A stretch of DNA of 44,076 bases from a virus: the IMG/VR virus record IMGVR_UViG_3300035091_000016, positions 1 to 44,076 of that record, one strand, 5' to 3'. A program made the position numbers and the translations under genes. This document shows, piece after piece, positions 2,809-21,763 of the stretch (its first letter is position 1; each line of letters starts with the position of its first letter). The notes beneath the pieces were generated by a model that saw only the letters and a list, made by a program, of their open reading frames with translations, ran no database searches and was not told where the DNA came from.

Positions 2809-2838
2809 ACTATAGCACGGTACGCGCTCCCCCCGGTA
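2809..2838 (-). promoter_or_regulatory. early-type extended -10 promoter (leftward)
   Basis: TATAGT at 2814-2809 is preceded by ACCGTGC, a diverged form of the family's GTGGTGTGC, with TACCGG at 2838-2833 as a weak -35. It points into the 2802 gene with no leader. Confidence 0.7.
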
Positions 2839-3104
2839 CCCCCTCATGAACGCTGGCCAGGCTGGGCAATTCCCCCCGGAGGGCGCTCCGGCTCCAGGTG
2901 CGGGGTTAGAGGGGTTAGAGGGGTTTGGAAAGGTCCCTAACGCGGGAAGGTTTTTATATCCTACTGATTTGGTATGCATATACATCGCCCGGAGGGGGAG
3001 CAAAACCATACCCCGCACACCCCGCTAACCCCGCACCTCCCAGCACACGAACAGGCCCCCCAGCGCGCGCTGGAGGGCCTGCCACTACCTGGACGTACTG
3101 GGCG
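2823..3104. other. intergenic region, candidate replication origin
   Basis: No gene is supported in these 280 bp. GGGGTTAGA is repeated in tandem at ~2902-2926, an A/T-rich stretch lies at about 2950-2985 (TTTTTATATCC, then GGTATGCATATACATC), and the inverse motif CTAACCCC occurs at ~3025-3032. Short iterons flanking an A/T-rich tract beside the primase-helicase gene are typical of phage origins. The region is closed by a terminator on the primase side and a promoter on the other. The origin call is inference. Confidence 0.45.
3054..3079. terminator. terminator after the primase gene
   Basis: A near-perfect 12-bp inverted repeat (one mismatch) pairs GGCCCCCCAGCG with CGCTGGAGGGCC, 26 nt beyond the primase stop. 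It is followed on the minus strand by TGTT. Confidence 0.6.
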
Positions 3105-5720
3105 CTAGGCCCGCTTTTCGACCCGCCAGAGGGCCACCTTGGTCCGCGAGGTCTTGCCCGCCTCCCGGAGCACGAGCGAGACCCCCTCATCCGTGGTGAC
3201 CCACCGCCCCAACCGGTTCATCACCCAGCGCCCGAGCGACTTGCGGCCCCCAGCCTCCGAGCGCTGGAGCTTCTCCAGGATCACGGTAGGGAGCCATTCC
3301 CGGGCATCGGCCCGGAACTCGTCCGGCTCCGCGGTGAGGAGTTCGCTCACGGTCCAGGGCTTGTCCCCGAACCCGGAGTAGATGTGCTCCAGGAGGGCCG
3401 CCAGACCATCATCATCCCCGCCCATCGCGGCACGCTGCCCGCTCTCCTGGTCAAAGGCCCCCGCCACTCCGGCGGCCTCCAGGATGCCCGCCAGGGCCGC
3501 CTCCCAGGTGGCGAACGAGTCCGATTGCGCGCGGACCGCGGGCCGCGCCCCGAGCGCCACCCAGTTCCGGATCATGACCATGAGCGCGTGGAGGAGCCGG
3601 TTGCGGTTGGTGGTGACCCACGCGGGCAAGTCCTGGATGGCGAACTCCCGTCGCTCGGGGTTGGCCATGTTCGGGTCAATCATGATGGTGATGGTCCGGC
3701 GCACCATGTCCCCGCCCAAGCTGGGGTTGTTCCCCGTGAAGACCCATAGGCGGTCATTGGTGAACGTCACGTTGGAGGTCTTCCCCAACTCCCGGTCCTG
3801 GAGTTCCCCGGACGAGGTGAGCAACCCCGCCAGCGTGGCGGACCTCAACACCCCGGTCACGTTATCGATGTGGACCACCGGGGCCGAGGTGGTGGCCAGG
3901 AGGCTCGTGGTCATTTTCTTGATCTCGGTCTCATCCCCGGGCATCTCGGACCGGAGGATGCCCCCGTGGAGGATACGCGCGATGTCCGCCAGGAGGGTCT
4001 TGCCCGAGCCCGGTTGGTGGGCACCGATGAAGAACGCCTTATAGCTGGGCGGTGCCAGCATCCGGAGGAGGGGCGTGATCAACAACCCGTAGTAGTTCGC
4101 GCGGTCCTCCTTGGTCACGAACGGGAACCCCGCCACCATCTCGTCCAGGAGGGCCACCGCGGAGGACACCTCCTCCGGCGTGGGCGCGTCCGGCACCTGG
4201 GCCACGTTGACCCCAGGGCCAGGGAGGAACAGGTACCCGGAGGCCGCGTCATACCCGGGCATGTCCAGGATCGATCCGTCACGCCGTACCATCGGCGTGT
4301 GGGTCACTCCCGCCAGCGCGCGGAGCATCACCATTGCCTCGGGCGCGTCCACCGCCCGCTTGGCGGCCTCCAGCGGGAAGAGGGCCGGAACCTCTCGCTC
4401 CTGGCCCCCGTCCTTCTCCTTGTCCTTGACCACCTTGTAACAACGGTGCGCGTACTGGATCTTGGCCGTGAGCTGGCCAGGCGTGACCGCCTGAATCTGG
4501 GCCGGACCGTTCTCCTCGTGCTCATCCCGCGGCGGGACGTAGCCAAGGTCATTGATGCGCGGGGTGTGGACCACGGCACCCATCCGCGTGAAGAACCCGG
4601 ACAGTGAGCCGGACCCCAGGGCCGCCTGGAGCCAGTACGTCATCTCCGCCGCGGAGGTGATGCACAGATCGGGGGCGGCGGTACCCGGCGCGCGTGCCGG
4701 AGCCACCTCCGGCTCCTCTCCTGGCCCATCCTGGAACTCGGGCTCCTGGGTGACCATGACCTCCCACGGCTCCTCCTGGCCGCGGGCCAGGCCCGCGCCG
4801 ATCACCGTTGCGGCGGTCCAGTTCCGGCCGTTGGCCGCGTTCCAGGAGTCCGAGTGGACCCCGCCGCGGGCCAGCGCGTCCATGAGGGCCTGGGCCGCAT
4901 CGTCCTCGGTGAGGAACCCGCCGCCCACGAACCGGCCGATGAGGCGCGCGGCCCCGCCGAGGGCACCGTTGATGGTCCCGTCCTTGGCGGCCTCCACCGC
5001 CTGGAGCTGGCCATTGATCACCCGCTGGGCGGACTCGGCATCCCACGCGGAGTACACCGTGTCAAACGGGTCATCATCGTCCCGCTCCGCCGCCTGGCCT
5101 TTGGCCTTGGTCCGCACGGGTGTCCGGCGGGCGCGGCCCGCCCGCACGAGGGACGCCAGCGCGTCCTGGGTACCGTCCCCCTCGTCCGTCCAGTCCGTGA
5201 GCCAGTCCAGGTCCGGCTCCGCCTCCCAGCGGTACGCCACGTCCTGGCCATCGTTGGGTCCGCCCTTGGCCCGCCGGACGGTAGGGGGCAGGAACACGAA
5301 CCCGCGGCCCTCCCCCTTGTCGTCCCCGGCCTGGAGATCAATCCCGGGCGCGGGGGACGCCTTGGCCACCCGGGTCCGGGTGATGTACTCGTGCGTCCCG
5401 CCGCCCGGGGTGAGGACCGTTCCGTACACCCGGGGCCAGACCCCCGCGTTGGTCAAGTCCACACGGGACTCATCCCCCTTGTTGCGGGGGTCGGTGTCCA
5501 GGACATCGCACACCACGCCCATCACGGCGCACATGGCCATCCCGGGCCGCCAGCGGTCCACCGCCGCATGGCTGGGCTTGGTGGTCTCCCAGCCCTTGGG
5601 GTACAGGAACTCGGGTCCGGCCCCGTGATTCCGGGAGGCCACGAACACGGGGATACCCGCGTCCACCATCGCGTGCGCCGTGGCGATGCCCGCCGCTTGC
5701 TCTGGAGTGAGGTCCGTCAT
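3105..5720 (-). CDS. PrimPol-helicase (primase/polymerase fused to ATPase)
   Basis: An 871-residue replication protein. Residues ~1-160 match the bifunctional primase/polymerase (AEP, 'Prim-Pol') pattern: 'CDVLDTD' supplies the metal-binding acids (D75, D77), 'GGGTHEY' the nucleotide-binding His (H110), and 'GEGRGFVFLPPT' the final strand. A linker follows. The C-terminal half is an ATPase/helicase with Walker A 'GAHQPGSGKT' near residue 570, a Walker B-like 'VVHIDN' near 615, and 'FTGNNPSLGGDMVRR' (sensor and arginine finger) near 665. Such fusions start replication in many phages and plasmids. The ATG at 5720 has only a weak AGGCGG upstream. No DNA polymerase gene was seen in the window. 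Confidence 0.88.
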   Translation of the reverse strand: MTDLTPEQAAGIATAHAMVDAGIPVFVASRNHGAGPEFLYPKGWETTKPSHAAVDRWRPGMAMCAVMGVVCDVLDTDPRNKGDESRVDLTNAGVWPRVYGTVLTPGGGTHEYITRTRVAKASPAPGIDLQAGDDKGEGRGFVFLPPTVRRAKGGPNDGQDVAYRWEAEPDLDWLTDWTDEGDGTQDALASLVRAGRARRTPVRTKAKGQAAERDDDDPFDTVYSAWDAESAQRVINGQLQAVEAAKDGTINGALGGAARLIGRFVGGGFLTEDDAAQALMDALARGGVHSDSWNAANGRNWTAATVIGAGLARGQEEPWEVMVTQEPEFQDGPGEEPEVAPARAPGTAAPDLCITSAAEMTYWLQAALGSGSLSGFFTRMGAVVHTPRINDLGYVPPRDEHEENGPAQIQAVTPGQLTAKIQYAHRCYKVVKDKEKDGGQEREVPALFPLEAAKRAVDAPEAMVMLRALAGVTHTPMVRRDGSILDMPGYDAASGYLFLPGPGVNVAQVPDAPTPEEVSSAVALLDEMVAGFPFVTKEDRANYYGLLITPLLRMLAPPSYKAFFIGAHQPGSGKTLLADIARILHGGILRSEMPGDETEIKKMTTSLLATTSAPVVHIDNVTGVLRSATLAGLLTSSGELQDRELGKTSNVTFTNDRLWVFTGNNPSLGGDMVRRTITIMIDPNMANPERREFAIQDLPAWVTTNRNRLLHALMVMIRNWVALGARPAVRAQSDSFATWEAALAGILEAAGVAGAFDQESGQRAAMGGDDDGLAALLEHIYSGFGDKPWTVSELLTAEPDEFRADAREWLPTVILEKLQRSEAGGRKSLGRWVMNRLGRWVTTDEGVSLVLREAGKTSRTKVALWRVEKRA

Positions 5721-5757
5721 GCTATATTCCGCCTAACTGTGTACTTGATGCGATGGC

Positions 5758-5789
5758 GGCGGCCCGGGGGGTGTGATCCCCGGGCCGCC
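5758..5789. terminator. terminator hairpin between helicase and primase genes
   Basis: A perfect 12-bp GC stem (5758-5769 with 5778-5789) with an 8-nt loop separates the two leftward replication genes. TCTTT follows on the plus strand only, so its effect on leftward transcription may be partial. Confidence 0.6.
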
Positions 5790-5798
5790 TCTTTGCTG

Positions 5799-7061
5799 TC
5801 AGGCTCCGCGCTTGGGGGTGGTGATCGTAACCTCCTTGGCGGCCCGCGTCACGGCGGTGTAAAGCCACTGGCGGCCCTGGGCCTCCGCCGCGCGGATGCC
5901 CTCCTTGCGGGTCACCATGCTCATCATGTTGGGGAGTTCGTTGACCACGTACACCGAGTCCCACTCGGAACCCTGGCTCTTGTGGCACGTGATGGCCTGG
6001 GAGAAGGTGGCCAGCATCCGCCCGCCCTTGATACCCGCGCCCGAGGACTTGGCCTGGCGCTCCTTGTCCAAGCCCTGGTATCCCTCGGCAAACGTGGGGA
6101 TGACCCGCTCACGTCCGTCATCGTCCATGAGGGTGAGGGTCGGCCCGAGCGGGGTGGGCTTGGCGTCCAGGACCGTGAACTGTGCGCCGTTGAACACGGC
6201 CAAGTCCTTGTTGTTCGTGAGGCACATCACGCGGTCACCCTTGCTCGGGACACCCAGCTCCCGGCCCGCCTTCTTGCGCATGATGTCGATCATGGCCCAC
6301 CGCCGCTTGTTGCTCCAGACGATGACCTGGGTGGCCTCCATCATCTTGGCGATGCTCCCCGGCTCCATATCCGAGGACGTGAGGCCGAGGGCCGCACCCT
6401 GGGAGAGCCGGACCCGCGTGGCGAGACTCAAGACCGGGGAGTCAAGCGCCTGGCGGTGGATCTCCTCCAGCATGAAATCCGGAGTGCGGTTGATGTAGTA
6501 ACCGCCGCCCTCCACCGGGGGGAGCTGGGCCTGGTCACCGAGCACGAGGACCGGGATGTTGTACCGCTCGATGTCCTCGGCAAGCTTCCCGTTGACCATC
6601 GAGACCTCATCCAGGATGAGGAGGCCCGGTCCGTCGTTCATCGCCTCCGGGTTCCACTCCCAGGACATCCGGCGGGAGCGGACCTCCAAGTCCTTGATCT
6701 CTTCCTGGAGCGCGGTCACCCCGTCCTCGTTGGGGTCCAGGACCGCCAGCTCCCGGCGGGCGGCCACGAGGCGGGCCTTGGCCTCCTCGTCCGCAAGCGG
6801 GTAGTAGATGGAGGAGTGGATGGTCTTGGCGGGCGCACCCTTGCGAGTCAGGACGTGGGCGGCCTTCCCCGTGAAGGTCATGAACTTGGCCGTGACCCCG
6901 AGCGCCCCGGGGATCTCCTTGGCCATCGTGGTCTTGCCGGTACCCGCCGGACCGGTGAGCAGGAAGGCCCCGCGCATCCCGTCACACGCATCCTGGTACC
7001 ACTTCTTGATCTCTTCGATCCCGGCGGTTTGCTCGGCGCTCAGCGCCACTCGGCTTGTCAT
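5799..7061 (-). CDS. SF1 DNA helicase, RecD/Dda-like
   Basis: A 420-residue ATP-dependent DNA helicase. Walker A 'GPAGTGKT' is at residues 37-44, Walker B/motif II is 'LLILDEVSM', motif III-like 'LGDQAQLPPV' follows, and the C-terminal UvrD-C2 part shows 'TCHKSQGSEWDSVYV' and 'LYTAVTRA', the hallmark of SF1B helicases such as RecD2 and T4 Dda. It would act at the fork or in recombination. The ATG at 7061 lies 6 nt after the TATGGT of an early-type promoter, so the transcript should be leaderless. In-frame sequence extends upstream of 7061 but would cross the promoter. It is first in the leftward arm, divergent from the 7150 gene. Confidence 0.88.
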   Translation of the reverse strand: MTSRVALSAEQTAGIEEIKKWYQDACDGMRGAFLLTGPAGTGKTTMAKEIPGALGVTAKFMTFTGKAAHVLTRKGAPAKTIHSSIYYPLADEEAKARLVAARRELAVLDPNEDGVTALQEEIKDLEVRSRRMSWEWNPEAMNDGPGLLILDEVSMVNGKLAEDIERYNIPVLVLGDQAQLPPVEGGGYYINRTPDFMLEEIHRQALDSPVLSLATRVRLSQGAALGLTSSDMEPGSIAKMMEATQVIVWSNKRRWAMIDIMRKKAGRELGVPSKGDRVMCLTNNKDLAVFNGAQFTVLDAKPTPLGPTLTLMDDDGRERVIPTFAEGYQGLDKERQAKSSGAGIKGGRMLATFSQAITCHKSQGSEWDSVYVVNELPNMMSMVTRKEGIRAAEAQGRQWLYTAVTRAAKEVTITTPKRGA

Positions 7062-7067: not shown

Positions 7068-7096
7068 ACCATAGCACACCACGCCAGACCCGCAAA
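7068..7096 (-). promoter_or_regulatory. early-type promoter (leftward), divergent
   Basis: CGTGGTGTGC precedes TATGGT (7073-7068), with TTTGCG at 7096-7091 as a possible -35 (17-bp spacer). It faces away from the promoter at 7113-7142 and drives the helicase gene without a leader. Confidence 0.8.
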
Positions 7097-7112: not shown

Positions 7113-7142
7113 TTCCGGATGCGTGCCGTGGTGTGCTATAGT
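7113..7142 (+). promoter_or_regulatory. early-type promoter (rightward)
   Basis: TTCCGG (7113-7118), 18-bp spacer ending CGTGGTGTGC, TATAGT (7137-7142). The ATG at 7150 is 7 nt beyond, so the mRNA should be leaderless. This opens the rightward early arm. Confidence 0.85.
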
Positions 7143-7378: not shown

Positions 7379-7409
7379 TTGTACCCGCCCCCGGGTGGTG
7401 TGCTATAGT
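7379..7409 (+). promoter_or_regulatory. early-type promoter
   Basis: TTGTAC (7379-7384), 19-bp spacer ending GTGGTGTGC, TATAGT (7404-7409). It serves the 7445 gene with a ~30-nt leader carrying AAGGAG. Confidence 0.85.
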
Positions 7410-7444
7410 CTTCCTATACCGACCGCATACGCAAGGAGCACAGC

Positions 7445-8104
7445 ATGAACCGCAACGCCAAGACCGCCGCCCGCGCGGTAGCCAACGGTACCGCCACCAA
7501 GGCCCAGTCCCAGGACTTCCGGGCCGCCGCCCTGGCGCTCGGATGGCAGGGTGCCCGCGGCCTCGGTGTCGTGAACCACACCTCCAATGAGCGGGTCCAG
7601 TCGTTCCGCCTCCTGGCCCAGTTCCTCCTGGAGGAGGCCGGGGACCACGAGGCCGCGATGGACCGCGCCGAGGAGGCCGAGATGGCCGAGATGGCCCAGG
7701 ACGAGGCGGACCGGGAGGCCCGCTGGGCCGAGTCCCAGGCCGCCAACCTGGCGGAGGCCGAGGCCGCCCGCACCGAGAACGAGGCCCCCGGCGGGATCTA
7801 CAGTCCCGAGGCCGCCCCCGTGACCGTGGTCCTGTACCGCACCCAGACCCCCACCATCCAGCTTTCCGAGGGGACCGCGGTGGACGCGGTGATCACGGAG
7901 GAGATCCTGGGCGTGACCGAGGGACTGTGCGAGTCCGGGGCCTCCCTGGAGTGCTCCCTGGAGGACCCGAGCATGGGACTCCTCCGCACGCTCCCCGAAT
8001 CGATGCTCCCGGGCCAGGAGCGAACCGTGATGCTCCAGTGCCTCCCCTGTTACGAGGCCAGCGCGGAGGCGTACGTCCGCAAGCTCCACCGGGCCACGGC
8101 ATGA
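7445..8104 (+). CDS. hypothetical protein, 219 aa
   Basis: No family recognised. Residues ~1-55 are basic and helical. Residues ~58-118 form a long Ala/Glu-rich, probably coiled-coil stretch ('EEAEMAEMAQDEADREARW'). The C-terminal ~95 residues look like a compact domain with four cysteines (CESGASLEC, CLPC) that could bind metal. The ATG at 7445 follows AAGGAG by 6 nt. The stop overlaps the ATG of the next gene (ATGA), making 7445, 8101 and 8301 a coupled set. Confidence 0.75.
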   Translation: MNRNAKTAARAVANGTATKAQSQDFRAAALALGWQGARGLGVVNHTSNERVQSFRLLAQFLLEEAGDHEAAMDRAEEAEMAEMAQDEADREARWAESQAANLAEAEAARTENEAPGGIYSPEAAPVTVVLYRTQTPTIQLSEGTAVDAVITEEILGVTEGLCESGASLECSLEDPSMGLLRTLPESMLPGQERTVMLQCLPCYEASAEAYVRKLHRATA

Positions 8105-8304
8105 GGACAGTCCTGGGGGTGTGCGCCGTGGTGTGCGCCCTCGGGGCGGTCCTCTCCGCCCTGGGCGGGGAGTGGGGTCACGCGGCGGCCTGGGCTTTCG
8201 GGTTCTGGATGGCGTGCGGGTGGTTCATCGCGGTATCGGTCTCGATGGCCGCCAAGGCCGGGGACGAGGGCATGGCCCGAGACGAGGGGGACGAGGACAG
8301 ATGA
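8101..8304 (+). CDS. two-pass membrane protein, 67 aa
   Basis: Two hydrophobic segments (about residues 4-20 and 27-50) with a short GEWGH turn, then a charged tail rich in Glu and Asp. The ATG overlaps the preceding stop and its TGA overlaps the next ATG, both as ATGA, which supports the short frame as real. Function unknown; holin-like topology is present but the position in the early region argues against lysis. Confidence 0.65.
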   Translation: MRTVLGVCAVVCALGAVLSALGGEWGHAAAWAFGFWMACGWFIAVSVSMAAKAGDEGMARDEGDEDR

Positions 8305-8543
8305 GAGACCAAGAGCGCGCCGTGGTGGACGCGGCCAAGGCATGGGCCAACCACCCCAGCGACTCCCGGGCCAAGGCCCTCGTGGAGGCGGTCCGCAAGC
8401 TGGAGGCCAACACGTGTCCGGCCCAGGGCATCCTGGGTGACCCCGCCTGGCCGTACTCGGTCTCGTGTGAGCGGACCGAGGGCCACGAGGCGGAGTACCA
8501 CAAGGACCCCGTACGCGGTATCGAATGGCGCTCCCGCCGCTAG
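8301..8543 (+). CDS. hypothetical protein, 80 aa
   Basis: A small soluble protein: a helical N-terminal half (residues 1-38), then a Cys/His-containing half ('NTCPAQ', 'SVSCERTEGHEAEYH') that could hold a zinc ion. The ATG at 8301 overlaps the stop before it (ATGA). The stop at 8543 is 1 nt before the next early-type promoter. No family recognised. Confidence 0.65.
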   Translation: MRDQERAVVDAAKAWANHPSDSRAKALVEAVRKLEANTCPAQGILGDPAWPYSVSCERTEGHEAEYHKDPVRGIEWRSRR

Positions 8544-8544: not shown

Positions 8545-8560
8545 CGTGGTGTGCTATAGT
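8545..8560 (+). promoter_or_regulatory. early-type extended -10 promoter
   Basis: A full match CGTGGTGTGCTATAGT begins 1 nt after the preceding stop codon. No good -35 is present, so the extended -10 element must carry recognition. It drives 8588 onward. Confidence 0.8.
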
Positions 8561-8587: not shown

Positions 8588-8830
8588 ATGCGAGGCACGT
8601 ACTTCCGGTGGACCGCCCGCCAGCGCGTGGGGAGTACCCAGGGGGTCAACGTCCTCCAGGCGGACATCCTGGGGGCGGACACGGACATTGTGGCGGACCC
8701 CGCCACGGGACTGGTCACGGTCAAGGTGCCGGACCGCCCCCTGGATGCGGACGAGGCCCGGATGATCGGGGTCCGCATCATTGAGGCGGCGGCCCTGGCG
8801 GACAACGGCCGATCGGTGCGCGAACCGTGA
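8588..8830 (+). CDS. hypothetical protein, 80 aa
   Basis: A small beta-rich protein ('GTYFRWTARQRV', 'GLVTVKVPD') with a C-terminal helix. No family recognised. GAGGAGG lies 5 nt before the ATG. It is first in a set of overlapping genes (8588 to 12955) that leads into the helicase and nuclease genes. Confidence 0.7.
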   Translation: MRGTYFRWTARQRVGSTQGVNVLQADILGADTDIVADPATGLVTVKVPDRPLDADEARMIGVRIIEAAALADNGRSVREP

Positions 8831-9288
8831 TGCCGGAAGCGGGGGCGGTCATTGAGGCCGCCCGCCGCTTCCTCTCCGGCCCCCTGGATGGGTCGGACGG
8901 AGCGGTGGCAGCGATGGAGGAGGCGGTGGCCGCCCTGGACGCCAAGCTGGCGTCCCTGGGGTCCGAGCCCTCCCGCACGGAGCAAGACCGTACCTGGGGT
9001 GAGGTAGTGGCGGGGGACGAGGTCCTGTCCGTCAAGACCGGGAAGTGGTACGAGGTGGGGACCACGGTCCGGACCACCGAGGGCAAGGCAAAGATCATGA
9101 TCAAGGGGAACCCCAAGCCCATCCTCCGCACCCCGTCGGACCCCGTGCGCCTCAAGCGCGGGGTGGAGGGTGACGCGGTGGACATCGTGGAGGTTCTGTT
9201 CTCCGGCACTACCCGGGCCACGGTCACCCGTGGCGGCGGGGATGCCGGACCCATGCTCACGGACAAGGTGGAGGACGATGATGAGTAA
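8830..9288 (+). CDS. hypothetical protein, 152 aa
   Basis: The N-terminal ~50 residues are helical; the rest is a beta-rich domain ('GDEVLSVKTGKWYEVG', 'VEVLFSGTTRATVTRG') with an acidic C-terminus (KVEDDDE). The ATG shares a base with the preceding stop (TGATG); an in-frame GTG one codon earlier is possible. No family recognised. Confidence 0.7.
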   Translation: MPEAGAVIEAARRFLSGPLDGSDGAVAAMEEAVAALDAKLASLGSEPSRTEQDRTWGEVVAGDEVLSVKTGKWYEVGTTVRTTEGKAKIMIKGNPKPILRTPSDPVRLKRGVEGDAVDIVEVLFSGTTRATVTRGGGDAGPMLTDKVEDDDE

Positions 9289-9550
9289 AAGGGGAGTGGC
9301 GCTCGGTGTCCTGGTTGCTGTCACGCTGGTTGGCCTCGTTACCTGGGCGGTAGTGGCCATGCACAACTGGGAGAAGGCTTGCCACGAGATGGGCGGGTCC
9401 GTAGATGAGCGGTACGAGTACACCGCGATGGACACCACGTACACGTACGATGCCAAGGGCAACGTGACGGGGGTCATCATCACCCCGCGGGATGTCTACT
9501 CGTATCACTGCATGGTGAACGGCCAGGAGGTGGACCCCGATGGCAAGTGA
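9281..9550 (+). CDS. small membrane-anchored protein, 89 aa
   Basis: A cationic N-terminus (MSKR) and one hydrophobic segment (residues ~6-27) are followed by a ~60-residue domain with two cysteines in the order C-x3-GG ... HC ('ACHEMGGS', 'YHCMVNG'), much like the 7150 protein though otherwise different. GGAGG lies 6 nt before the ATG at 9281; an ATG one codon earlier (9278) is less well spaced. An exported, disulphide-bonded domain is inferred. Function unknown. Confidence 0.7.
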   Translation: MSKRGVALGVLVAVTLVGLVTWAVVAMHNWEKACHEMGGSVDERYEYTAMDTTYTYDAKGNVTGVIITPRDVYSYHCMVNGQEVDPDGK

Positions 9551-9740
9551 GGACGAGGACTGGATGGACGTGGCTCCCGCCACCGAGGCGATGGGTACGC
9601 CGTTCGTGGCGGCCCTCCGCGGAGAGTGTGACGAGTGCGCGTGCGGCATCCGCCCCGGAGAGATGATCCAACGGACCGATGGCGGGTACGCGCACGCTCT
9701 GTGCCTCCGCCTCCTCATGCGCCCGGTGGTGTGGGAATGA
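9540..9740 (+). CDS. small zinc-ribbon-like protein with WMD tag, 66 aa
   Basis: The N-terminus carries an acidic tag (SEDEDWMDVAPA, residues 3-14) that recurs in the 11939 and 13307 proteins. It is followed by a likely metal-binding core: C30, C33, C35 and C55 in 'CDECACG ... HALC', similar to small PARP-type/LIM-like zinc fingers. The frame overlaps the stop of 9281 by 11 nt and its own stop overlaps the next ATG (ATGA). The shared tag suggests a partner in the recombination machinery; the role is unknown. Confidence 0.7.
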   Translation: MASEDEDWMDVAPATEAMGTPFVAALRGECDECACGIRPGEMIQRTDGGYAHALCLRLLMRPVVWE

Positions 9741-13191: not shown

Positions 13192-13306
13192 CGCAAGGTG
13201 CAAGGCCATACCACCGCCCAAGCGGGCATGATGAGACTGGACCCCGCACCGCGCACCGCCGGACCCCGCCAGGGCAACGGCTCCGTTGAAGAGGAAGAGG
13301 AACAAG

Positions 13307-14753: not shown

Positions 14754-14776
14754 CATGGCCCCTCCTCGGGGGTGAG

Positions 14777-14807: not shown

Positions 14808-15029
14808 CTAGCGCTCCCAGCCCGAGAGGGTGTTGAGGGCCGCCGCGTTCCGGTTCTGGATGTCCCGGGCCTTGGTGCCCAGGCCCGCCCGGTAGGCGTC
14901 CCCCAGGACCCGCGCCAGGCGGTTCTCCAAGGTGCCCTCGGGCTTGCCCGCGGTGCGCCACGCCTTGTCCAGCTTGGCGACCGAGCGGAGGATCTTGCCA
15001 GCGTTCCGGGTGGAGGTCTTGGCGGCCAT
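14808..15029 (-). CDS. small basic protein, 73 aa
   Basis: A mostly helical, basic protein ('GKILRSVAKLDKAWRTAGK', 'RLARVLGDAYRAG') that might bind nucleic acid. No family recognised. GAGGAG lies 6 nt before the ATG at 15029. Its leader (15030-15068) is almost the same as that of the divergent 15215 gene, so the two are probably expressed alike. Confidence 0.7.
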   Translation of the reverse strand: MAAKTSTRNAGKILRSVAKLDKAWRTAGKPEGTLENRLARVLGDAYRAGLGTKARDIQNRNAAALNTLSGWER

Positions 15030-15068: not shown

Positions 15069-15099
15069 ACTATAGCACACCACGGCGGGGGCGTGTCTA
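15069..15099 (-). promoter_or_regulatory. early-type promoter (leftward)
   Basis: TAGACA (15099-15094), 19-bp spacer ending CGTGGTGTGC, TATAGT (15074-15069). It drives the 15029 gene and is divergent to the promoter at 15145. Confidence 0.85.
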
Positions 15100-15144: not shown

Positions 15145-15175
15145 TTGTGGTGCGGTCCCCGTGGTGTGCTATAGT
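15145..15175 (+). promoter_or_regulatory. early-type promoter (rightward)
   Basis: TTGTGG (15145-15150), 19-bp spacer ending CGTGGTGTGC, TATAGT (15170-15175). The -35 lies between GGGG and CCCC runs that can pair. It drives the 15215 gene with a ~33-nt leader. Confidence 0.85.
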
Positions 15176-15214: not shown

Positions 15215-16009
15215 ATGACCGCCGCCGGAAAGATCAACGCCAGCAACGTCCAGGCCGGGGACCGCATCGTGGTCCGCATCGAGCGGAATGACGCGGGCCT
15301 CTTCGTGGGCCTCCACGAGAGCCGGACCAAGACCCACGCCGATGACCTCGTGGTCCGCGTGACTGGCAAGACCTTCCGCAACGCCCAGGGTCCTTACGAG
15401 GCCCGCGGTAAGTACGTCATCGAGACCACGGCCGGAGCGTTTGAGGCCGCCCCCATCCAGACCATGATCCTTGCGCCGGAGGACGCGGCGGGCATCAAGC
15501 GGGCACACGCCGAGGCCATCGTTGAGGACGAGGAGTTCTCCCGGGTCCGGGCCGCGATGGCCGAGATTGAGGCCGAGGAGGCCGCTCTCCTGGCCGAGGC
15601 CAAGGACCAGGCGGAGCGCACCGCCGCCCTGGAGGCCCGGGTGGACGAGGCGTTCCCCCCGGCGGTCCACGCGGAGCTGGCGGCCACCCTGGCCGAGGAC
15701 ACCCGCATCACGGAGGCCCAGCACGCCGAGGTGAACGAGCGCCACCGGGCACACCTGGCCTCCCGCTCCACCGCCACCCAGATGGTGGGCCGCCCGCTCC
15801 GGCTGGCCGAGGCCGCCACGCCCGCCGCCGCCTCCCTCGCCACCCTGGCCAGGGTGGCCCAGGGCCTCGGCCGGACCCTCCGCCCCATCCTGGAGGACGG
15901 GGTGCGCCAGGCCCGCGAGATCCCCGAGGGCCGCCGCCGCCACGGCCAGGTGAAGGCCCGCCGGGACGCGCTCCGGCACGCGCGCAAGCTGGAGCTGGCC
16001 AACCTCTGA
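15215..16009 (+). CDS. hypothetical protein with long coiled coil, 264 aa
   Basis: The first ~90 residues are beta-rich ('GDRIVVRIERNDAGLFVG', 'GKYVIETTAGAFE'). The rest is almost all Ala/Glu/Arg-rich helix with likely coiled coil (about 95-200) and a basic C-terminus. GAGGAG precedes the ATG at 15215 by 6 nt. It is expressed alone: a promoter stands before it and a hairpin plus promoter follows. Function unknown; abundance from a strong promoter suggests a structural or host-binding role. Confidence 0.75.
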   Translation: MTAAGKINASNVQAGDRIVVRIERNDAGLFVGLHESRTKTHADDLVVRVTGKTFRNAQGPYEARGKYVIETTAGAFEAAPIQTMILAPEDAAGIKRAHAEAIVEDEEFSRVRAAMAEIEAEEAALLAEAKDQAERTAALEARVDEAFPPAVHAELAATLAEDTRITEAQHAEVNERHRAHLASRSTATQMVGRPLRLAEAATPAAASLATLARVAQGLGRTLRPILEDGVRQAREIPEGRRRHGQVKARRDALRHARKLELANL

Positions 16010-16044: not shown

Positions 16045-16059
16045 GTGGTGTGCTATAGT
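16030..16059 (+). promoter_or_regulatory. early-type promoter
   Basis: TTCCGG (16030-16035), 18-bp spacer ending CGTGGTGTGC, TATAGT (16054-16059), then TCAGGTA. It serves the 16092 gene. Confidence 0.85.
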
Positions 16060-16091: not shown

Positions 16092-16535
16092 ATGCAGGAT
16101 GCGCGCAACCTGGGCCTCGTGACCGGGGGCACCGACTCCGAGCGGAGTGACACGTACGGGCTGGAGATGGCCCCCGAGGCCCGCCGGGAGGCCCGCCACG
16201 AGGCCGAGACCGCCGAGGTGGCCCAGCTCCGGGCCGACTTCCACGCGGAGCCCTGGAACGCGCCCCGCCGCATCGCCATCCGCCAGCGGTTGGCCCAGCT
16301 TTCCCGCAACCTGTACGAGGACCGCCACGAGACGCGGGAGGAGTACGAGGTGGACCGCCTCCGGGCGCGGTACATGACCACGGACCTCCCGGAGGAAAAG
16401 GAGCGCATCGTGGGCAAGCTGGCGGCCCTGGGCGCGGTGGTCTTCCCCGAGGGCTCCCCCCAGTACACCGAGTACCGGGAAGCGCTCCGCAAGGCCCTCT
16501 CGGACCCCAAGGCGTGGGACTTCCTGGAGGCGTAA
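16092..16535 (+). CDS. hypothetical helical protein, 147 aa
   Basis: A highly charged, mostly helical protein rich in Glu and Arg ('ARREARHEAETAEVAQLRAD'). No family recognised. AAGGGAG lies ~6 nt before the ATG. A promoter before and a terminator after make it a single-gene unit. Confidence 0.7.
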   Translation: MQDARNLGLVTGGTDSERSDTYGLEMAPEARREARHEAETAEVAQLRADFHAEPWNAPRRIAIRQRLAQLSRNLYEDRHETREEYEVDRLRARYMTTDLPEEKERIVGKLAALGAVVFPEGSPQYTEYREALRKALSDPKAWDFLEA

Positions 16536-16543: not shown

Positions 16544-16571
16544 CCGCGGGGGGGGTTCCGGCCCCCCGCGG
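16544..16571 (+). terminator. terminator whose loop holds the next -35
   Basis: A perfect 10-bp stem CCGCGGGGGG/CCCCCCGCGG, 8 nt after the stop. The 8-nt loop GGTTCCGG contains the -35 of the promoter that follows. Confidence 0.65.
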
Positions 16572-16585
16572 TGGTGTGCTATAGT
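16556..16585 (+). promoter_or_regulatory. early-type promoter
   Basis: TTCCGG (16556-16561), 18-bp spacer ending GTGGTGTGC, TATAGT (16580-16585), then TCAGGTA. It serves the 16614-17401 pair. Confidence 0.85.
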
Positions 16586-16613: not shown

Positions 16614-17063
16614 GTGAACGGCGAGACCACGCAAGACCTCACCCCCCACTACTCCCCGAGCGAGACCTATCGGTACGTGGTGGGCTACCTGGGCGCGCGC
16701 CGGGGGGACTACATCGGGGGCGGCCCGCTGGCACCCCGGTACACCGCGGAGTACGGCACGGAGGTCCGGGACACCTGGACCGGGGACGTGATGAGCGTTC
16801 ACTGGGCGGCCTCCGCGGAGCTGGCCAGCCTCGTGGCGGAAACCCAGTGCGGGGAGCGGAACGCGGCGGCCACGGCCATCACGTTCCCCTCCAAGCTGGC
16901 CCTGTTCGTGAGCCGCGCCCGCGATGCCGAGACGAACCCCGGGGACATCCTGGAGGACGTGGACCGCATCCTGGAGTGGCACCTCAAGCGCCTCCGGGGC
17001 CTCTCCCAGGAGCCGCTGGACCAGACCCGCCTGTACGTCCAGGCCCCCGAGTTCAACCGGTGA
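16614..17063 (+). CDS. hypothetical protein, 149 aa
   Basis: A soluble mixed alpha/beta protein with a Tyr-rich N-terminal third ('SETYRYVVGYLGARRGDYIG') and a helical C-terminus ('DVDRILEWHLKRLRG'). GTG start at 16614 after AAGGAGG. No family recognised. Its stop overlaps the next start (TGATG). Confidence 0.7.
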   Translation: MNGETTQDLTPHYSPSETYRYVVGYLGARRGDYIGGGPLAPRYTAEYGTEVRDTWTGDVMSVHWAASAELASLVAETQCGERNAAATAITFPSKLALFVSRARDAETNPGDILEDVDRILEWHLKRLRGLSQEPLDQTRLYVQAPEFNR

Positions 17064-17401
17064 TGTGGGTCATGGTGGCGGCCCTCGTGGCCGCCGCCCT
17101 CCTCACTGCCGCGGGCTGGGCCGCGTTCTGGCCCGAGTGGCCGCCCATCGAACCGGGGGCGCACCGAGCCAAGACAGACCCCGTAAACCCCCCAGAACCC
17201 GCGCCCGCCCGGGAGCCCGCCCCTCGGGTGGGGTTCCCGGTCCCCGGGCCGGACGAGTGGATGTGGTCCACGGACGAGGCCAAGCGGAAGCGGCCCAAGC
17301 ATCGTCACGAGGACATCGGGGAAGGCACCCAGCGCCTCCCCTGGCACGAGGTCCCCAGTGGACCCCAACCGCTCTACCCCCCGGCCCCGCCGGTAGACTG
17401 A
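17063..17401 (+). CDS. membrane-anchored proline-rich protein, 112 aa
   Basis: One N-terminal membrane segment (residues ~2-22, 'VMVAALVAAALLTAAGWAAF') is followed by a Pro-rich, probably extended region and a short 'GPDEWMWSTDEAKRK' stretch. ATG at 17063 shares a base with the preceding stop. Function unknown. The Trp-Met-acid run is only loosely like the WMD tag found elsewhere and is not counted with it. Confidence 0.65.
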   Translation: MWVMVAALVAAALLTAAGWAAFWPEWPPIEPGAHRAKTDPVNPPEPAPAREPAPRVGFPVPGPDEWMWSTDEAKRKRPKHRHEDIGEGTQRLPWHEVPSGPQPLYPPAPPVD

Positions 17402-17468: not shown

Positions 17469-17499
17469 TTGACCGTAGGACCGCAAGGTGTGCTATGGT
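17469..17499 (+). promoter_or_regulatory. early-type promoter, best -35 of the family
   Basis: TTGACC (17469-17474), 19-bp spacer ending AAGGTGTGC, TATGGT (17494-17499). The -35 is closer to consensus while the extended element has diverged at its start. Confidence 0.8.
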
Positions 17500-17505: not shown

Positions 17506-17976
17506 ATGGCAAACACCCCCGCACGGCGGGGACGCCGGAAGGTCACCGAGACCCCGGCCACCGCCGAGACCGCAACCGTCCAGGAGGACACGAACATGAG
17601 CGACATCAACGGCACCCAGGACACCGCCGAGGGCACCGAGGCCGAGGCCGGTACCGCCGAGGCGGGCCACACGTTCAACGTGGGTGACGAGGCCCGCGTG
17701 ATCCGCGGCAAGCTCCGCGGCCAGAACGGCAAGATCCTGGCCTACTCGGCCACGGACAAGACGTACGCCATCTCCCTGGAGTCGGGCACCCTGGCCACCG
17801 TGAACGCGGCCAACCTCAAGGCCCCCGCGGACTCCACGGTCTCCATCTCGGCGCTCGTGGGCATCCTCCACGGGTTCCCGTTCGCGGACTCCGAGGACGC
17901 CGTGAAGCTGGCGGCGGCCCTGGACGCCGTGGCCCCGGGCGTGTCCACCAAGCTGGCCGAGGCTTCCGCCTCCTGA
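17506..17976 (+). CDS. KOW-like domain protein, two possible starts
   Basis: The core 'GDEARVIRGKLRGQNGKILAY' (within ~63-85) resembles a KOW motif, the RNA/protein-binding fold of NusG and ribosomal L24, and is followed by a helical C-terminus. The ATG at 17506 lies 6 nt after the -10, as in the leaderless genes, giving 156 residues. An in-frame ATG at 17596 with CAGGAGGA at good distance would give 126. Both may be used. The extra 30 residues are basic then acidic and look disordered. A role in transcription or translation is possible but not shown. Confidence 0.7.
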   Translation: MANTPARRGRRKVTETPATAETATVQEDTNMSDINGTQDTAEGTEAEAGTAEAGHTFNVGDEARVIRGKLRGQNGKILAYSATDKTYAISLESGTLATVNAANLKAPADSTVSISALVGILHGFPFADSEDAVKLAAALDAVAPGVSTKLAEASAS

Positions 17977-18092: not shown

Positions 18093-18123
18093 TTGCGGCC
18101 CCCCATCCGTGGTGTGCTATAGT
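18093..18123 (+). promoter_or_regulatory. early-type promoter, leaderless
   Basis: TTGCGG (18093-18098), 19-bp spacer ending CGTGGTGTGC, TATAGT (18118-18123). GGGGG and CCCCC runs flank the -35. ATG follows after 6 nt. Confidence 0.85.
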
Positions 18124-18129
18124 CTAGGT

Positions 18130-19002
18130 ATGAGCGAGAACAAGACCCCCAAGAGCATCCGGGCCGCACGCTGGACCGCCGGAACCGTGATCGGTGGCGG
18201 CCTCCTGGCCTCGGTGGCTGGCAACGTCCAGTCCATCCTCCTGGACACCCCGGAGGGCCAGACCCCCTCCGTGGGTGCGATCATCTCCGCGGTGTGGTGG
18301 CCCGCCCTCCTGTTCGCCATGATCCACCTGGCGCTCACCATCCCGTGGGGGGATGGGGCGTGGCGCTGGGGTCGCTGGATTGGCCCCGGAGTCATCGGTG
18401 GCCTGGCGTTCTACATCTCGTTTTTCCACCTGGCCCACGTCCTCTCGTACTTCGGTTACGACGTGGTGAGCCGGTACGCTGGCCCGCTCACGGTGGACGT
18501 GGCCATGTTCGTGGCCACCATTGCCTGGCACCGCGTGAGCGTGGCCAAGGAGCTGGCCACCCAGGAGGTGGCCACGCTGGCCAGCGCTCCGGCCGTGGCC
18601 ACTGGCCAGCCCGAGGTGGCCACGGAGGAACTGGCCACGGAGCCCGCCGAGGTGGCCACGCTGGCCAGCCTCCGGGAGCCCAGCCTGGCCGAGGACTGGG
18701 CGGACCTGGACACCTCCTGGGACGAGGAGCTGGCCACGATGACCGCCGCCGCCCAGACCGCGCCGGAGCCCACCCAGCCCGCCGAGGAGCCCGCTCCGGC
18801 TCCGGCCGAGGCCCCCGCGGTGGCGCTCACCACGGTCCCCGCCGAGGCCGCCAAGCGCATCCAGGAGATCCTGGACGAGACCCCCAAGGCCACGGGCGTG
18901 GCGATTGCCCAGGCGCTCATGGCGGCGGGCCTGGCCTCCTCGGAGAAGACCGGACGCCGGTACGCGGCGGCGGTCAAGAACAACACCGCCCGGGTGGCCT
19001 AG
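18130..19002 (+). CDS. DUF2637/SpdB-like membrane protein with HTH tail
   Basis: A 290-residue protein. Residues ~15-140 hold four hydrophobic segments in the layout of DUF2637 proteins ('LFAMIHLALTIPW', 'FHLAHVLSYFGYD', 'LTVDVAMFVATIAW'), found in actinobacterial plasmids and integrative elements near FtsK/TraB translocases. A long Ala/Val/Thr/Glu repeat follows, then a C-terminal helix-turn-helix-like end ('GVAIAQALMAAGLASSEKTG'). The mRNA should be leaderless from ATG 18130. Its repeat region carries 13 TGGCCA hexamers. A role with the FtsK-like protein (19599-21527) is inferred. Confidence 0.75.
   Translation: MSENKTPKSIRAARWTAGTVIGGGLLASVAGNVQSILLDTPEGQTPSVGAIISAVWWPALLFAMIHLALTIPWGDGAWRWGRWIGPGVIGGLAFYISFFHLAHVLSYFGYDVVSRYAGPLTVDVAMFVATIAWHRVSVAKELATQEVATLASAPAVATGQPEVATEELATEPAEVATLASLREPSLAEDWADLDTSWDEELATMTAAAQTAPEPTQPAEEPAPAPAEAPAVALTTVPAEAAKRIQEILDETPKATGVAIAQALMAAGLASSEKTGRRYAAAVKNNTARVA
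18498..18737. repeat. TGGCCA cluster in the DUF2637-like gene
   Basis: Thirteen TGGCCA hexamers lie in ~240 bp, encoding repeated Val-Ala-Thr and Leu-Ala. Chance would give about one in 3 kb at this base composition. Confidence 0.7.
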
Positions 19003-19040
19003 GCCACGAGGGGGTACTTTCCCCAGGTCACCACGCTTAG

Positions 19041-19073
19041 ACCGCCCCGCTTGGGTCACCCCGGCGGGGCGGT
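19041..19073 (+). terminator. terminator after the DUF2637-like gene
   Basis: ACCGCCCCGC (19041-19050) pairs perfectly with GCGGGGCGGT (19064-19073), then TT. Confidence 0.7.
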
Positions 19074-19086
19074 TTGGCGTCCGGGG

Positions 19087-19117
19087 TTGCGCTCCCCGGC
19101 CCGTGGTGTGCTATAGT
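19087..19117 (+). promoter_or_regulatory. early-type promoter, leaderless
   Basis: TTGCGC (19087-19092), 19-bp spacer ending CGTGGTGTGC, TATAGT (19112-19117). The -35 is in the loop of a CCGGGG/CCCCGG stem (19081-19099). ATG follows after 6 nt. Confidence 0.85.
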
Positions 19118-19123
19118 ACAGGT

Positions 19124-19522
19124 ATGAGCGAACGAGGCGTTAAGTGCGGCAAGTGCAAGGGCTACCACCCGAACGTCCGGGAGGTGCGGGCCTGCTACCT
19201 GGCCGCCGCCGGACAGACCCCCAGCGCGCCCGCCCAGGTGGCCCAGGAGGCCCTGGCGGTCCCGGCCCCCACGGAGCCCGGGTTCTACACCACGGGGGCG
19301 GCCACGTACCGCCTGGCCCCCACGATGGAGTGGTCCAAGCTCCTGAGTAACGGCCGGTTCGCCACCGGTTGCTCCGCCCCCGTCGCGCCGCGCCGGATGA
19401 CCGTGGACGAGGTGGCCGCCCAGGGCCGCATCCACGTCCGTTGCATCGTCTGTGGGATCACCCTCAAGAACCCCAAGAGCCGCGCCCTCGGCATCGGCCC
19501 GGTCTGCCGCGGGTACGTCTAG
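19124..19522 (+). CDS. zinc-binding protein, DUF6011-like
   Basis: A 132-residue protein with two cysteine sites: an N-terminal 'CGKCKGYHPNVREVRACY' and a C-terminal 'CIVCGITLKNPKSRALGIG' ending PVC. The second has the spacing of DUF6011 proteins (CxxCGxxLxxPxSxxxGIGPxC), common in actinobacterial phages and plasmids. Metal binding is likely; the role is unknown. The mRNA should be leaderless from ATG 19124. It converges with the FtsK-like gene over the terminator at 19531. Confidence 0.78.
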   Translation: MSERGVKCGKCKGYHPNVREVRACYLAAAGQTPSAPAQVAQEALAVPAPTEPGFYTTGAATYRLAPTMEWSKLLSNGRFATGCSAPVAPRRMTVDEVAAQGRIHVRCIVCGITLKNPKSRALGIGPVCRGYV

Positions 19523-19530
19523 GACACGGA

Positions 19531-19558
19531 GGAGCCCTGGCCAGATGGCCAGGGCTCC
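19531..19558. terminator. bidirectional terminator
   Basis: A perfect 12-bp stem GGAGCCCTGGCC/GGCCAGGGCTCC with loop AGAT, between convergent genes. The preceding GACACGGAGGAGCCC also precedes the terminator at 24179. Confidence 0.75.
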
Positions 19559-19776
19559 AGGTGCCCGCGCGACCGCATATCTCGTGGACGTGGCCAGCCT
19601 ACTGGCCAGAGGCCATCCTGGCCATCTGCCAGTCCGTGAGCTGGCCAAGATCAAATAGCCTGGCCTCCGTCCGGCCGTACGCCTGGCCATCGGGCTTGGC
19701 CAGAGGCTCGGGGAACCCCGGGCGCTTGGCCGCCGTCCGCAACCCCTCCAGGGAGATGGCCATCGGTCCATCCTGG
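19538..19776. repeat. TGGCCA cluster at the end of the FtsK-like gene
   Basis: Ten TGGCCA hexamers in ~240 bp span the terminator and the last ~60 codons of the translocase gene. Confidence 0.7.
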
Positions 19777-21527
19777 CCAGGGAGCATGTCCAGCGCGGAG
19801 GCCAGGGTCACGGCCGAGGTGATGGCGGGGCGCTCATCCCCGCCCCCCACCTCGGTCCAGGACTCCCCATCGATGCTCGGGGATGAGGTCTGGGGTCCGA
19901 GGACCGGGCCGGTAGCGGGTGCCGCCCGGAGGCACGCCTCCGCCATCTCCACCTCCGACATCCACGGGACACGGAACACAAAGAACTCATCCCCGCGGGC
20001 AAGGCCCCAGATACCGCGCGGCCCCGTGGGACACGCCACGTAGTCCAGGGTGTCCACCAACATTTTCCAGAGCTTCTTATCCCACTTGGCGATGAGGCGT
20101 CCGCCCTGGAACGACTCCCGAACGTCACCCCCGCCCCCGCCGAACACACCCGCGGACGCGCGCTGGGCGGCGGCCACCATGTGCATCCGCAACTCCCGGC
20201 CCATGAACACGGTTTCCTGGAGCGCGACCACGGCCGGAGAGGTGGTGGGCGGGTCAAGGTCCGCCTCGTCCAGTCCCTCGTCCAGGGCCAGGGCCAGGCC
20301 ATCGGACTTGGACCCCTCGCACCGCTCGATGCAGTCGGCAAGCTGGGCCTTGGCCCGGTTCATGATCCGCCGCCGCTCGGCTTTCCAGTAGCGGTTCAAC
20401 TTCTTGATCTGGGCGTTCAGCTCCTCGGCCACGACGAACACCCGGCGCTGGCGCTCCAGCTCCTCCTCCGGGAGTTCGATCCGGCGGGCGGTCTCCTCGG
20501 CCACGGCCATCCACGCCGCGTGCAAGTCCTCGTCCCGGTGGGCGTACACCACCCGGTCCCGGGAGAGCTTGCCCGCCCAGCGGATGTGAGAGAACCGCTT
20601 GGGGTCCGTGATGATCACGCCATCCCCGCGCTCGATGCGCTGGCGGAGGAACACCCGGACGAGGACGGACTTGCCGGTACCGGCGGCACCCGACATGAGG
20701 ACGTGCGGGGAGTCCTCGGAGAGCGACACCTTGACGAACCGGCCCCCCGGCCCGCGGCCCACAATGATCTCATCCTCCGCACACTTGGCGATGGCGGGGA
20801 GGAGCGAGGCATACGAGACCTCACGCGGGGGCACGGGCGCACCCTTGATGTCCACGAACGGGGCCGCGCCCACCTCGTTCCACTCCCCCACCGGGGACGG
20901 GATGCCGAGGCGCGCGCCGATGTTCTCCGTGATGCGCTTCTTGGTCCCCGCGTCCAGGGTGGAGCCCGCCGGGAGCCAGACCCGCGCCACCTTGGGCACA
21001 TCGTCCTCCGCGGTCTCGGCCCCGCTCCCCCACCCGTGCGGGAGTTCGATCATCCGGCGGGCCTTGCTCTTGACGTAGCTCTGGCCCAGGATGCGCGCCA
21101 GCAACTCCGCCGAGGGGTCGATGAACTCCCGCCGGACACGCCGGGTACGGAGGTACCGGATGGGGTTGTGGAACCGGAGCCCGCGGCGGAGGGCCAGGAG
21201 GAGCCACACGAGGCCCGCCAGCGCGACCGCGGTAAGCCAGGCGACACCGAGCCACCACGGCACCCAGGAGAACGGCGCGGCCAGCTCCAGGAGGAGCGGG
21301 ACCGTGATGGCCGCGTTCCGGCGCGCGACCCTCCGCCACCTGGCCCGGGAGAGCTTGGGGATGGGCTTGTGCCGGTAGTCCTCCGTTGCATCGTGGAGGA
21401 ACGAGGCGTTGTCTCGGGGGGTGAGGATGGGGTACCCGGACACGAGGTAGCGCCACACGGCCAGCGGCCCCTTGGGCGTGTGCCAGGTGTCCGCCCGCGT
21501 GGTCACGATTGCGGTCGCTTTTGCCAT
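19599..21527 (-). CDS. FtsK/TraB-like DNA translocase
   Basis: A 642-residue protein with two membrane segments near residues 73-113, then an FtsK/SpoIIIE-type ATPase: Walker A 'GAAGTGKS' (280-287), 'VIITDPKRFSH', and Walker B 'VFVVAEELN'. The layout (short membrane anchor, single motor) is that of TraB-type translocases that move double-stranded DNA between mycelial cells in Streptomyces plasmids. The final ~150 residues are not a clear gamma domain. The ATG at 21527 is 6 nt after TAGACT, so it may also be leaderless. It is the only leftward gene in this part and shares a divergent control region with 21585. Confidence 0.82.
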   Translation of the reverse strand: MAKATAIVTTRADTWHTPKGPLAVWRYLVSGYPILTPRDNASFLHDATEDYRHKPIPKLSRARWRRVARRNAAITVPLLLELAAPFSWVPWWLGVAWLTAVALAGLVWLLLALRRGLRFHNPIRYLRTRRVRREFIDPSAELLARILGQSYVKSKARRMIELPHGWGSGAETAEDDVPKVARVWLPAGSTLDAGTKKRITENIGARLGIPSPVGEWNEVGAAPFVDIKGAPVPPREVSYASLLPAIAKCAEDEIIVGRGPGGRFVKVSLSEDSPHVLMSGAAGTGKSVLVRVFLRQRIERGDGVIITDPKRFSHIRWAGKLSRDRVVYAHRDEDLHAAWMAVAEETARRIELPEEELERQRRVFVVAEELNAQIKKLNRYWKAERRRIMNRAKAQLADCIERCEGSKSDGLALALDEGLDEADLDPPTTSPAVVALQETVFMGRELRMHMVAAAQRASAGVFGGGGGDVRESFQGGRLIAKWDKKLWKMLVDTLDYVACPTGPRGIWGLARGDEFFVFRVPWMSEVEMAEACLRAAPATGPVLGPQTSSPSIDGESWTEVGGGDERPAITSAVTLASALDMLPGQDGPMAISLEGLRTAAKRPGFPEPLAKPDGQAYGRTEARLFDLGQLTDWQMARMASGQ

Positions 21528-21532
21528 GTGTC

Positions 21533-21577
21533 CAGTCTACCCAACGTCCGACGTTTTCGGGACTCGTGGCATATACT
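21533..21577. promoter_or_regulatory. divergent control region with palindromic operator
   Basis: TAGACT (21538-21533, minus) and TATACT (21572-21577, plus) face away from each other and lie 6 and 7 nt from the flanking start codons. AACGTC-C-GACGTT (21543-21555) is a perfect palindrome between them. Neither -10 has the GTGGTGTGC element. Confidence 0.55.
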
Positions 21578-21584
21578 GGCGCGC

Positions 21585-21749
21585 GTGAGTGAGCAGACCG
21601 CCAGCGCGAACTGGAAACGGACGTTGACCAAGCTACGGCGGATGATGGAGGAGCTACGGGCGCACGATGTCCAGTGCATCGAACCGCCGAACATGGACAC
21701 TCCCCCGCACAAGAGGGGCCTTCCCCCGCCCAGTGATGGTGTGCTATAG
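21585..21749 (+). CDS. small basic protein, possible autoregulator, 54 aa
   Basis: GTG start 7 nt after TATACT, no Shine-Dalgarno site, so again leaderless in form. The product has one strongly basic helix ('WKRTLTKLRRMMEELRAH') and an extended Pro-rich tail. Its stop codon lies inside the TATAGT of the next promoter. It is the likeliest partner of the palindromic operator next to it, but it is short and could be spurious. Confidence 0.5.
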   Translation: MSEQTASANWKRTLTKLRRMMEELRAHDVQCIEPPNMDTPPHKRGLPPPSDGVL

Positions 21750-21750
21750 T
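21721..21750 (+). promoter_or_regulatory. early-type promoter with tandem -10
   Basis: TTCCCC (21721-21726), 18-bp spacer ending GATGGTGTGC, TATAGT (21745-21750); a second TATAGT is at 21754-21759. It serves the 21826-24166 operon. Confidence 0.8.
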
Positions 21751-21763
21751 ACCTATAGTGGGA

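Follow-up and report, generated by a model that had tools for sequence, protein, structure and literature searches.

We studied a complete IMG/VR virus record (IMGVR_UViG_3300035091_000016; 44,076 bases, 67.9% GC), which we call the window. It is probably from an uncultured, lytic actinobacteriophage. We found 13 near-identical promoter-like sites in its early region, each with an extended -10 element and, further upstream, a short additional word. Across related phages, this word is uniform from site to site within a phage and changes in concert between phages. We lean towards reading the 13 sites as early promoters for the host's sigma-A, with the extra word being read by a phage-encoded factor.

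Thirteen near-identical sites in the early region

The initial annotation described a family of 14 related phage promoters. Searching for the 15-mer GTGGTGTGCTATAGT with up to 3 mismatches gave 13 matches, all in the first 22 kb, as compared to 0.35 on average (and 3 at most) in shuffled sequences, which bears out a near-identical, promoter-like family. Nine copies are exact (7128+, 7395+, 8546+, 15069-, 15161+, 16045+, 16571+, 18109+, and 19103+), two have one mismatch (7068-, with TATGGT, and 21736+), and two have three mismatches (2809- and 17485+, the latter with TATGGT). (The annotated positions were essentially right, but eight of them were one base too low.) With a 23-column weight matrix, all 13 sites score 27.8-40.1 bits. 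The runner-up, which lies within a gene, scores 11.5 bits, and Markov shuffles reach 14.5 bits at most. The proposed fourteenth site, a diverged copy near 12938, is a chance resemblance outside the family: the nearest candidate (12949-12963 on the minus strand) scores only 5.5 bits and opposes the direction of the operon. Reading the hyphen in the annotated pattern as a one-base gap gave no match once a base was inserted.

The 15-mer holds 24.7 bits of information, while 12.7 bits would suffice to locate 13 sites. This agrees with the annotation's view that the conserved block exceeds what a sigma factor needs, and concerted change among the relatives (below) argues for it more strongly. In IMG/VR, the exact 15-mer has just 11 single matches, in contigs with 38-54% GC, which is the level expected by chance. 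The 15-mer plus TA matched 10 times across 84,980 genomes, and none of these were actinobacterial.

Promoter anatomy and putatively leaderless genes

Aligned by the hexamer, the sites have GGGG followed by TTG or TTC in the -35 zone (spacer of 18-19 bp), a stretch of some ten bases with little conservation, CGTGGTGTGC, and TAT[AG]GT. As for the annotated -35 element, there is a TTG 19 bp upstream in five sites and a TTC 18 bp upstream in others, but the GGGG run before it is more constant. Extended -10 promoters of sigma-A have TGN directly before TANNNT, and all 13 sites have TGC directly before TAT[AG]GT, so the annotation of extended -10 promoters is supported. The hexamer is followed by six bases and then, in 12 of the 13 sites, by an A at the putative +1, regardless of whether the gene has a leader. 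(The same column, 7 nt past the hexamer, is A in 88% of the relatives' sites.) The base at -1 is always a pyrimidine (10 T and 3 C).

The positions of the start codons fit with this +1. An ATG lies exactly at +1 in five open reading frames (ORFs; at 2802, 7061, 17506, 18130, and 19124) and one base after it in another (7150). Allowing at most one mismatch, we found TGCTATAGT-N6-ATG 7 times, as compared to 0.01 expected; the ATG is complete in five of these. The other seven promoters are followed by a leader of about 20-70 nt that carries a Shine-Dalgarno (SD) sequence. We infer that six genes are expressed from leaderless mRNAs whose start codon is at or next to +1, and that all 13 sites, which look like promoters, are active and used by sigma-A. 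The arrangement matches the standard layout of leaderless genes in actinobacteria, where TANNNT precedes the start codon by 7-12 bp; in Mycobacterium tuberculosis, about a quarter of genes are leaderless (PMC3898074). Overall, the sites share TGC-TATAGT, a putative purine start seven bases past the hexamer, a loose -35, and putatively leaderless mRNAs with the extended -10 promoters of actinobacterial sigma-A/sigma-70 (TGNTANNNT; PMC3898074, PMC5511352). Unlike those promoters, the window's sites add a near-invariant, phage-specific word at -22 to -17 and an 18-19 bp spacer. For leaderless phage genes, this anatomy also sets right the start codons, which simple ORF calling puts in the wrong place.

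The upstream word is private to each phage

No relatives turned up when the Dda helicase or the polymerase was used alone as the query. Two were identified by a permissive scan for the DNA pattern, namely G001 (42.3 kb) and G002 (21.2 kb); their replication genes share 45-60% identity with the window's. A search with the helicase at 9913-11592 then recovered a clade of roughly a dozen uncultured phages with 40-56% identity. We then searched blindly for repeated 16-mers containing TANNNT. The window and 12 of the 14 loci L252-L265 (all but L257 and L265) each yielded a promoter family of 6-13 members in this way, versus 1-6 members in shuffles. The relatives' arrays occupy equivalent places, such as a divergent pair before the Dda helicase. 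In all 12 phages with a listed site for the Dda gene, its ATG is 6-7 nt past the hexamer.

Most of the relatives have the same -10 and +1 as the window, but the word at -22 to -16 differs: it is CGTGGTG in the window, CTACGTG in the nearest relatives, and [CT]TAC[CG]TC or others elsewhere. To compare phages, we used 91 promoters from 13 phages, which were chosen by the hexamer, its adjoining bases, and a downstream start codon or SD plus start codon, without using the word. Identity at -22 to -18 is 0.58 within phages and 0.37 between them (0.51 and 0.41 without the window). For the hexamer it is 0.95 both within and between phages; for -17 to -13, 0.89 and 0.79; and for the discriminator (-6 to -1), 0.50 and 0.41. 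None of 200 permutations gave differences as large for the word, for -17 to -13, or for the discriminator. By contrast, identity within and between phages is similar at +1 to +3 (0.56 and 0.57), in the free spacer (0.30 and 0.28), and at +4 to +12 (0.33 and 0.33). The -35 zone has a weak within-phage excess (0.03-0.05) that is mostly due to the window.

Orthologous promoters show the same pattern. The word of the Dda promoters has 0.535 identity with the other promoters of its own phage and 0.327 with its orthologues; for the promoters of Dda's divergent partner, these values are 0.525 and 0.327 (0.327 is the background level). In a tree of the helicase, L252 is the sister of the window's phage (support 0.864), and both fall within a clade that includes L253 and L255 (0.996). 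These four phages mostly have TGTGC before the hexamer, and the other phages mostly have TCTGC. Within this clade, only the window's phage has CGTGGTG; the others have CTACGTG. It appears that the word was switched at 10 or more sites on the window's branch while the flanks drifted. Uniformity of the word in one phage combined with a switch in the next is what would be expected if a phage factor acted on it in trans.

Could the likeness of the copies merely reflect the spread of a small promoter cassette or gene conversion? Some pairs do share additional sequence (16045 and 16571; the leaders of 15069 and 15161; the starts of 18109 and 19103). But the flanks (-29 to -23 and +4 to +12) show little or no more similarity within phages than between them, so the tracts at all these many sites would need to stay below about 25 bp. 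Uniformity that is limited to a few bases argues for recognition in trans, and we consider copying or conversion very improbable.

Does host RNA polymerase alone read the word?

Another explanation is that these are plain host sigma-A promoters: nothing but host RNA polymerase would read the word, and phages would differ in their hosts or in the promoter strengths they prefer. The extended -10 is linked to higher activity in M. tuberculosis (PMC3898074). Also, a similar many-copy array occurs in an unrelated viral contig (L087; 31.9 kb, 44% GC), with about 14 promoter-like sites of the form TTGACA-(16-17)-RTGTG[CG]TATAGT, all on one strand between 82 and 7402. In IMG/VR, the 12-mer GTGTGCTATAGTNNNNNTA has a promoter-like context: a TTGA lies 16-19 bp away in 27 of 120 sites (versus 57 of 2,380 random positions), and 17 of 120 sites precede an SD and a start codon (versus 1 of 99 control sites). 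It is this context that is enriched in viral DNA; the 12-mer itself is not strongly enriched, as the reversed pattern was found in 99 contigs and the 12-mer in at least 119. On the other hand, the best copy in the sister phage L252 has CTACGTG, not CGTGGTG. Since actinobacterial RNA polymerases are highly conserved, a full change of the word at 10 or more sites would not be expected from the polymerase alone. We view this explanation as possible but somewhat unlikely.

We prefer the explanation in which a phage-encoded factor takes part. Host RNA polymerase and its main sigma factor would read TGTGC-TAT[AG]GT along with a loose TTG or TTC -35 at 18-19 bp. Transcription would begin at the A seven bases past the hexamer, giving six leaderless genes and short SD leaders for the others. 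The 5-6 bp word (CGTGG.. at -22 to -17) would be a further recognition element common to the promoters of one phage, and a phage-encoded DNA-binding protein, bound to the word beside sigma, would tune the array by activating it or shutting it off.

Several points weigh against this. First, host RNA polymerase itself contacts parts of -22 to -13 (the TRTG motif and the beta' zipper), so some of the word may simply set promoter strength. Second, the use of sigma-A is assumed. Third, the word is poorly defined in three relatives (L254, L258, and L264). Finally, a factor on the upstream word would not by itself explain the within-phage excess in the discriminator.

Possible readers of the word

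The initial annotation suggested a phage operator or activator site. The word could be the operator of a phage repressor, for immunity or early shut-off, comparable to the conserved inverted repeats of phiC31 or the stoperators of cluster A. Many copies lie over early promoters with a phage-specific sequence, and such operator arrays are known in actinophages (R4, PMC10276819; palindromes can also be observed in the sequence of phiC31). But the word is asymmetric and keeps a single register with the -10, and we did not find the variable register, dyad symmetry, or clear excess of free copies of repressor operators and stoperators. In the window, GTGGTGTGC occurs 13 times; 10 copies lie in promoters, without exception in one register, and the other three are near chance level. 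(One of these, at 35572-35580, lies without a -10 in a 262-nt intergenic gap in the late region and may be due to chance.) Also, no tyrosine integrase, serine recombinase, or HTH_3 protein scored over the cut-off in the window, G001, or G002, while control genomes were positive. A classical repressor operator is quite improbable given the asymmetry, the fixed register, and the lack of clear excess of free copies. An activator or a co-factor beside sigma is more likely than a repressor.

We also considered polymerases and sigma factors from the phage. Sigma70_r4 had no hits over the cut-off in the window, G001, or G002 but was found in an unrelated genome (G003) and all controls, although a very diverged sigma factor might escape this search. 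Promoters for a phage sigma factor were set aside on these grounds. No RNA polymerase gene was among the window's PHROGs matches, and a search for PF00940 was silent in the window and in the controls as well. No T7-type single-subunit polymerase was recognized, the dedicated search having no positive control.

The best candidate that we can name, speculatively, is a predicted 98-amino-acid winged-helix protein that is conserved in the clade (2506-2802, minus strand). It is one of two DNA-binding candidates put forward in the initial annotation. It was modelled with three homologues (predicted local distance difference test score 81.5), and the best match of the model in PDB is 3r0a (E = 7.7e-4, probability 1.0). 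Ten clade members, including the window, encode this family. In the seven phages examined (the window, where it is tied for worst, G001, L252, L253, L256, L260, and L261), the promoter of this gene deviates from the family word, which would suit a factor that is made before its targets. Caveats are that in several relatives this promoter overlaps the end of the preceding gene and that the comparison was in part made post hoc. Perhaps a small specificity factor of this family steers host RNA polymerase to the 5-6 bp word adjoining the extended -10, with factor and word co-evolving; we consider this specific proposal unlikely. If true, such a factor would let each phage have early promoters private to it while encoding neither a sigma factor nor a polymerase.

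Comparison to other phage promoter arrays

Repeated intergenic motifs without a known function have been reported in many actinophages. Multi-copy early promoters are known in phages, and the window's sites have a phage-private element in addition. Comparing 13 phages separates the constant features (-10, +1, and leaderless starts) from the word that switches. In Streptomyces phage phiC31, one near-identical element of the CGGGTTGCCGACTCCCTTAC family likewise precedes many early genes, and its -35 zone contains GGGTTG. (The promoter role of these elements was reportedly addressed by Ingham, Wilson, and Smith.) Unlike the window, phiC31 is temperate, has no site like GTGGTGTGCTATAGT, and has a different core (CGGGTTGCCGACTCCCTTAC). 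Actinoplanes phage phiAsp2 also has a promoter-like array with a conserved spacer in its early zone, TTGACACTTCACAGTCAAGC-N3-TAATGT, but with another word, a TTGACA -35, and a partly palindromic spacer. (PhiAsp2's Pas41 is a partial homologue of the 15215-16009 product.) Arrays resembling the window's, each with a private spacer word, occur in phiAsp2 (TTGACACTTCACAGTCAAGC) and in L093. L093 (43.5 kb; the same genome as G003) is unrelated to the window; its promoter-like family has the private word TGTCCGACCC, and it encodes a Sigma70_r4 protein (23100-23186 in G003).

In the middle promoters of phage T4, the site for a phage protein (the MotA box, near -30) adjoins a host extended -10. We identified no homologue of MotA or AsiA in the window. 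Lytic Microbacterium phages of cluster EC have 12 copies of an 18-bp motif, TAGaCTATaGGTgTaAgC, which is likewise asymmetric and intergenic; it contains CTATAGGT and lies 21-30 bp before start codons (PMC7302621). Unlike the window, cluster EC encodes a sigma factor, and its motif differs and has no known function (PMC7302621). The SAS/ESAS elements of cluster K are also different: the 13-bp GGGATAGGAGCCC lies at the ribosome binding site, while the window's motif is at -21 to -7 and has a different sequence.

The promoters and the genes they precede

Almost all early transcription units are preceded by one of the 13 promoters, which lie on both strands. Promoter 1 (2809-2823, minus; GTACCGTGC TATAGT) has a diverged word and serves the endonuclease VII operon, with the ATG of the putatively leaderless winged-helix gene at +1 (2802). 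Promoter 2 (7068-7082, minus; GTGGTGTGC TATGGT) serves the Dda-type helicase (5799-7061), which appears to be leaderless with its ATG at +1 (7061), and then the polymerase (3105-5720). Divergent from it is promoter 3 (7128-7142, plus), which precedes a putatively leaderless gene for a 74-amino-acid membrane-like protein (ATG at 7150, 7 nt past the hexamer).

Promoters 4 to 7 have leaders with an SD. On the plus strand, promoter 4 (7395-7409; putative +1 A at 7416) precedes the genes at 7445-8543, and promoter 5 (8546-8560) precedes the helicase and exonuclease operon (8588-12955). Promoter 6 (15069-15083, minus) precedes 14808-15029 and 14583-14756, and promoter 7 (15161-15175, plus), which is divergent from it, precedes 15215-16009. 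From 15 to 19.5 kb, the promoters serve single genes.

The remaining promoters are on the plus strand. Promoter 8 (16045-16059; gene 16092-16535) and promoter 9 (16571-16585; genes 16614-17401) have GC hairpins, directly upstream in the case of promoter 8, with stems of 7 and 9 bp and TTCCGG in the loop. Promoter 10 (17485-17499; AAGGTGTGC TATGGT) has TTGACC 19 bp upstream and precedes gene 17506-17976. Promoter 11 (18109-18123) and promoter 12 (19103-19117) have TTGCGG and TTGCGC in hairpin loops and precede genes 18130-19002 (a weak match to DUF2637) and 19124-19522 (DUF6011). The genes after promoters 10 to 12 are putatively leaderless. Promoter 13 (21736-21750; ATGGTGTGC TATAGT) is followed by a hairpin-containing leader of about 70 nt and then by the operon at 21826-24166.

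Overall, about 5 of the 13 promoters have a GC-rich stem with TTG or TTCCGG in the loop, which rules out a hairpin holding the -35 as part of every promoter. Across the clade, 13 of 91 promoters have perfect stems of at least 7 bp, versus 1.0 in shuffles. Probably, these hairpins are terminators for the gene before them and overlap with the promoter that follows. In the early region of phiC31, terminators are reportedly likewise packed into the following promoter.

None of the 13 promoters lies in the late block (24.2-44 kb), which is on the minus strand throughout and encodes the terminase, portal, protease, capsid, tape measure, tail, and endolysin. In the early region, the gene for an FtsK/HerA-type ATPase (19599-21527) has its own, different -10 (TAGACT-GGACAC-ATG), likewise of the leaderless type.

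Other features of the early region

The ATPase (with DUF87 and TrwB-like matches) adjoins the weak DUF2637 protein and the DUF6011 protein (18130-21527 in all), and several relatives have homologues. This set resembles conjugative elements and plasmids of actinomycetes. The 156-amino-acid protein from the putatively leaderless gene at 17506-17976 has a KOW motif slightly under the Pfam cut-off and is possibly associated with RNA or RNA polymerase. A lone tRNA-Lys(CTT) lies at 13123-13192, between the exonuclease operon and gene 13307.

Directly downstream of the polymerase gene, the window has G-rich iterons (GGGGTTAG; 2850-3060) that are inverted around an AT-rich stretch. In the same place relative to the polymerase gene, G001 (about 23030-23200) and G002 (about 1580-1750) have GGGGGTTTC-like and GGGGGGAGT iterons, which are likewise inverted around an AT-rich stretch. 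This region is the probable replication origin in all three genomes.

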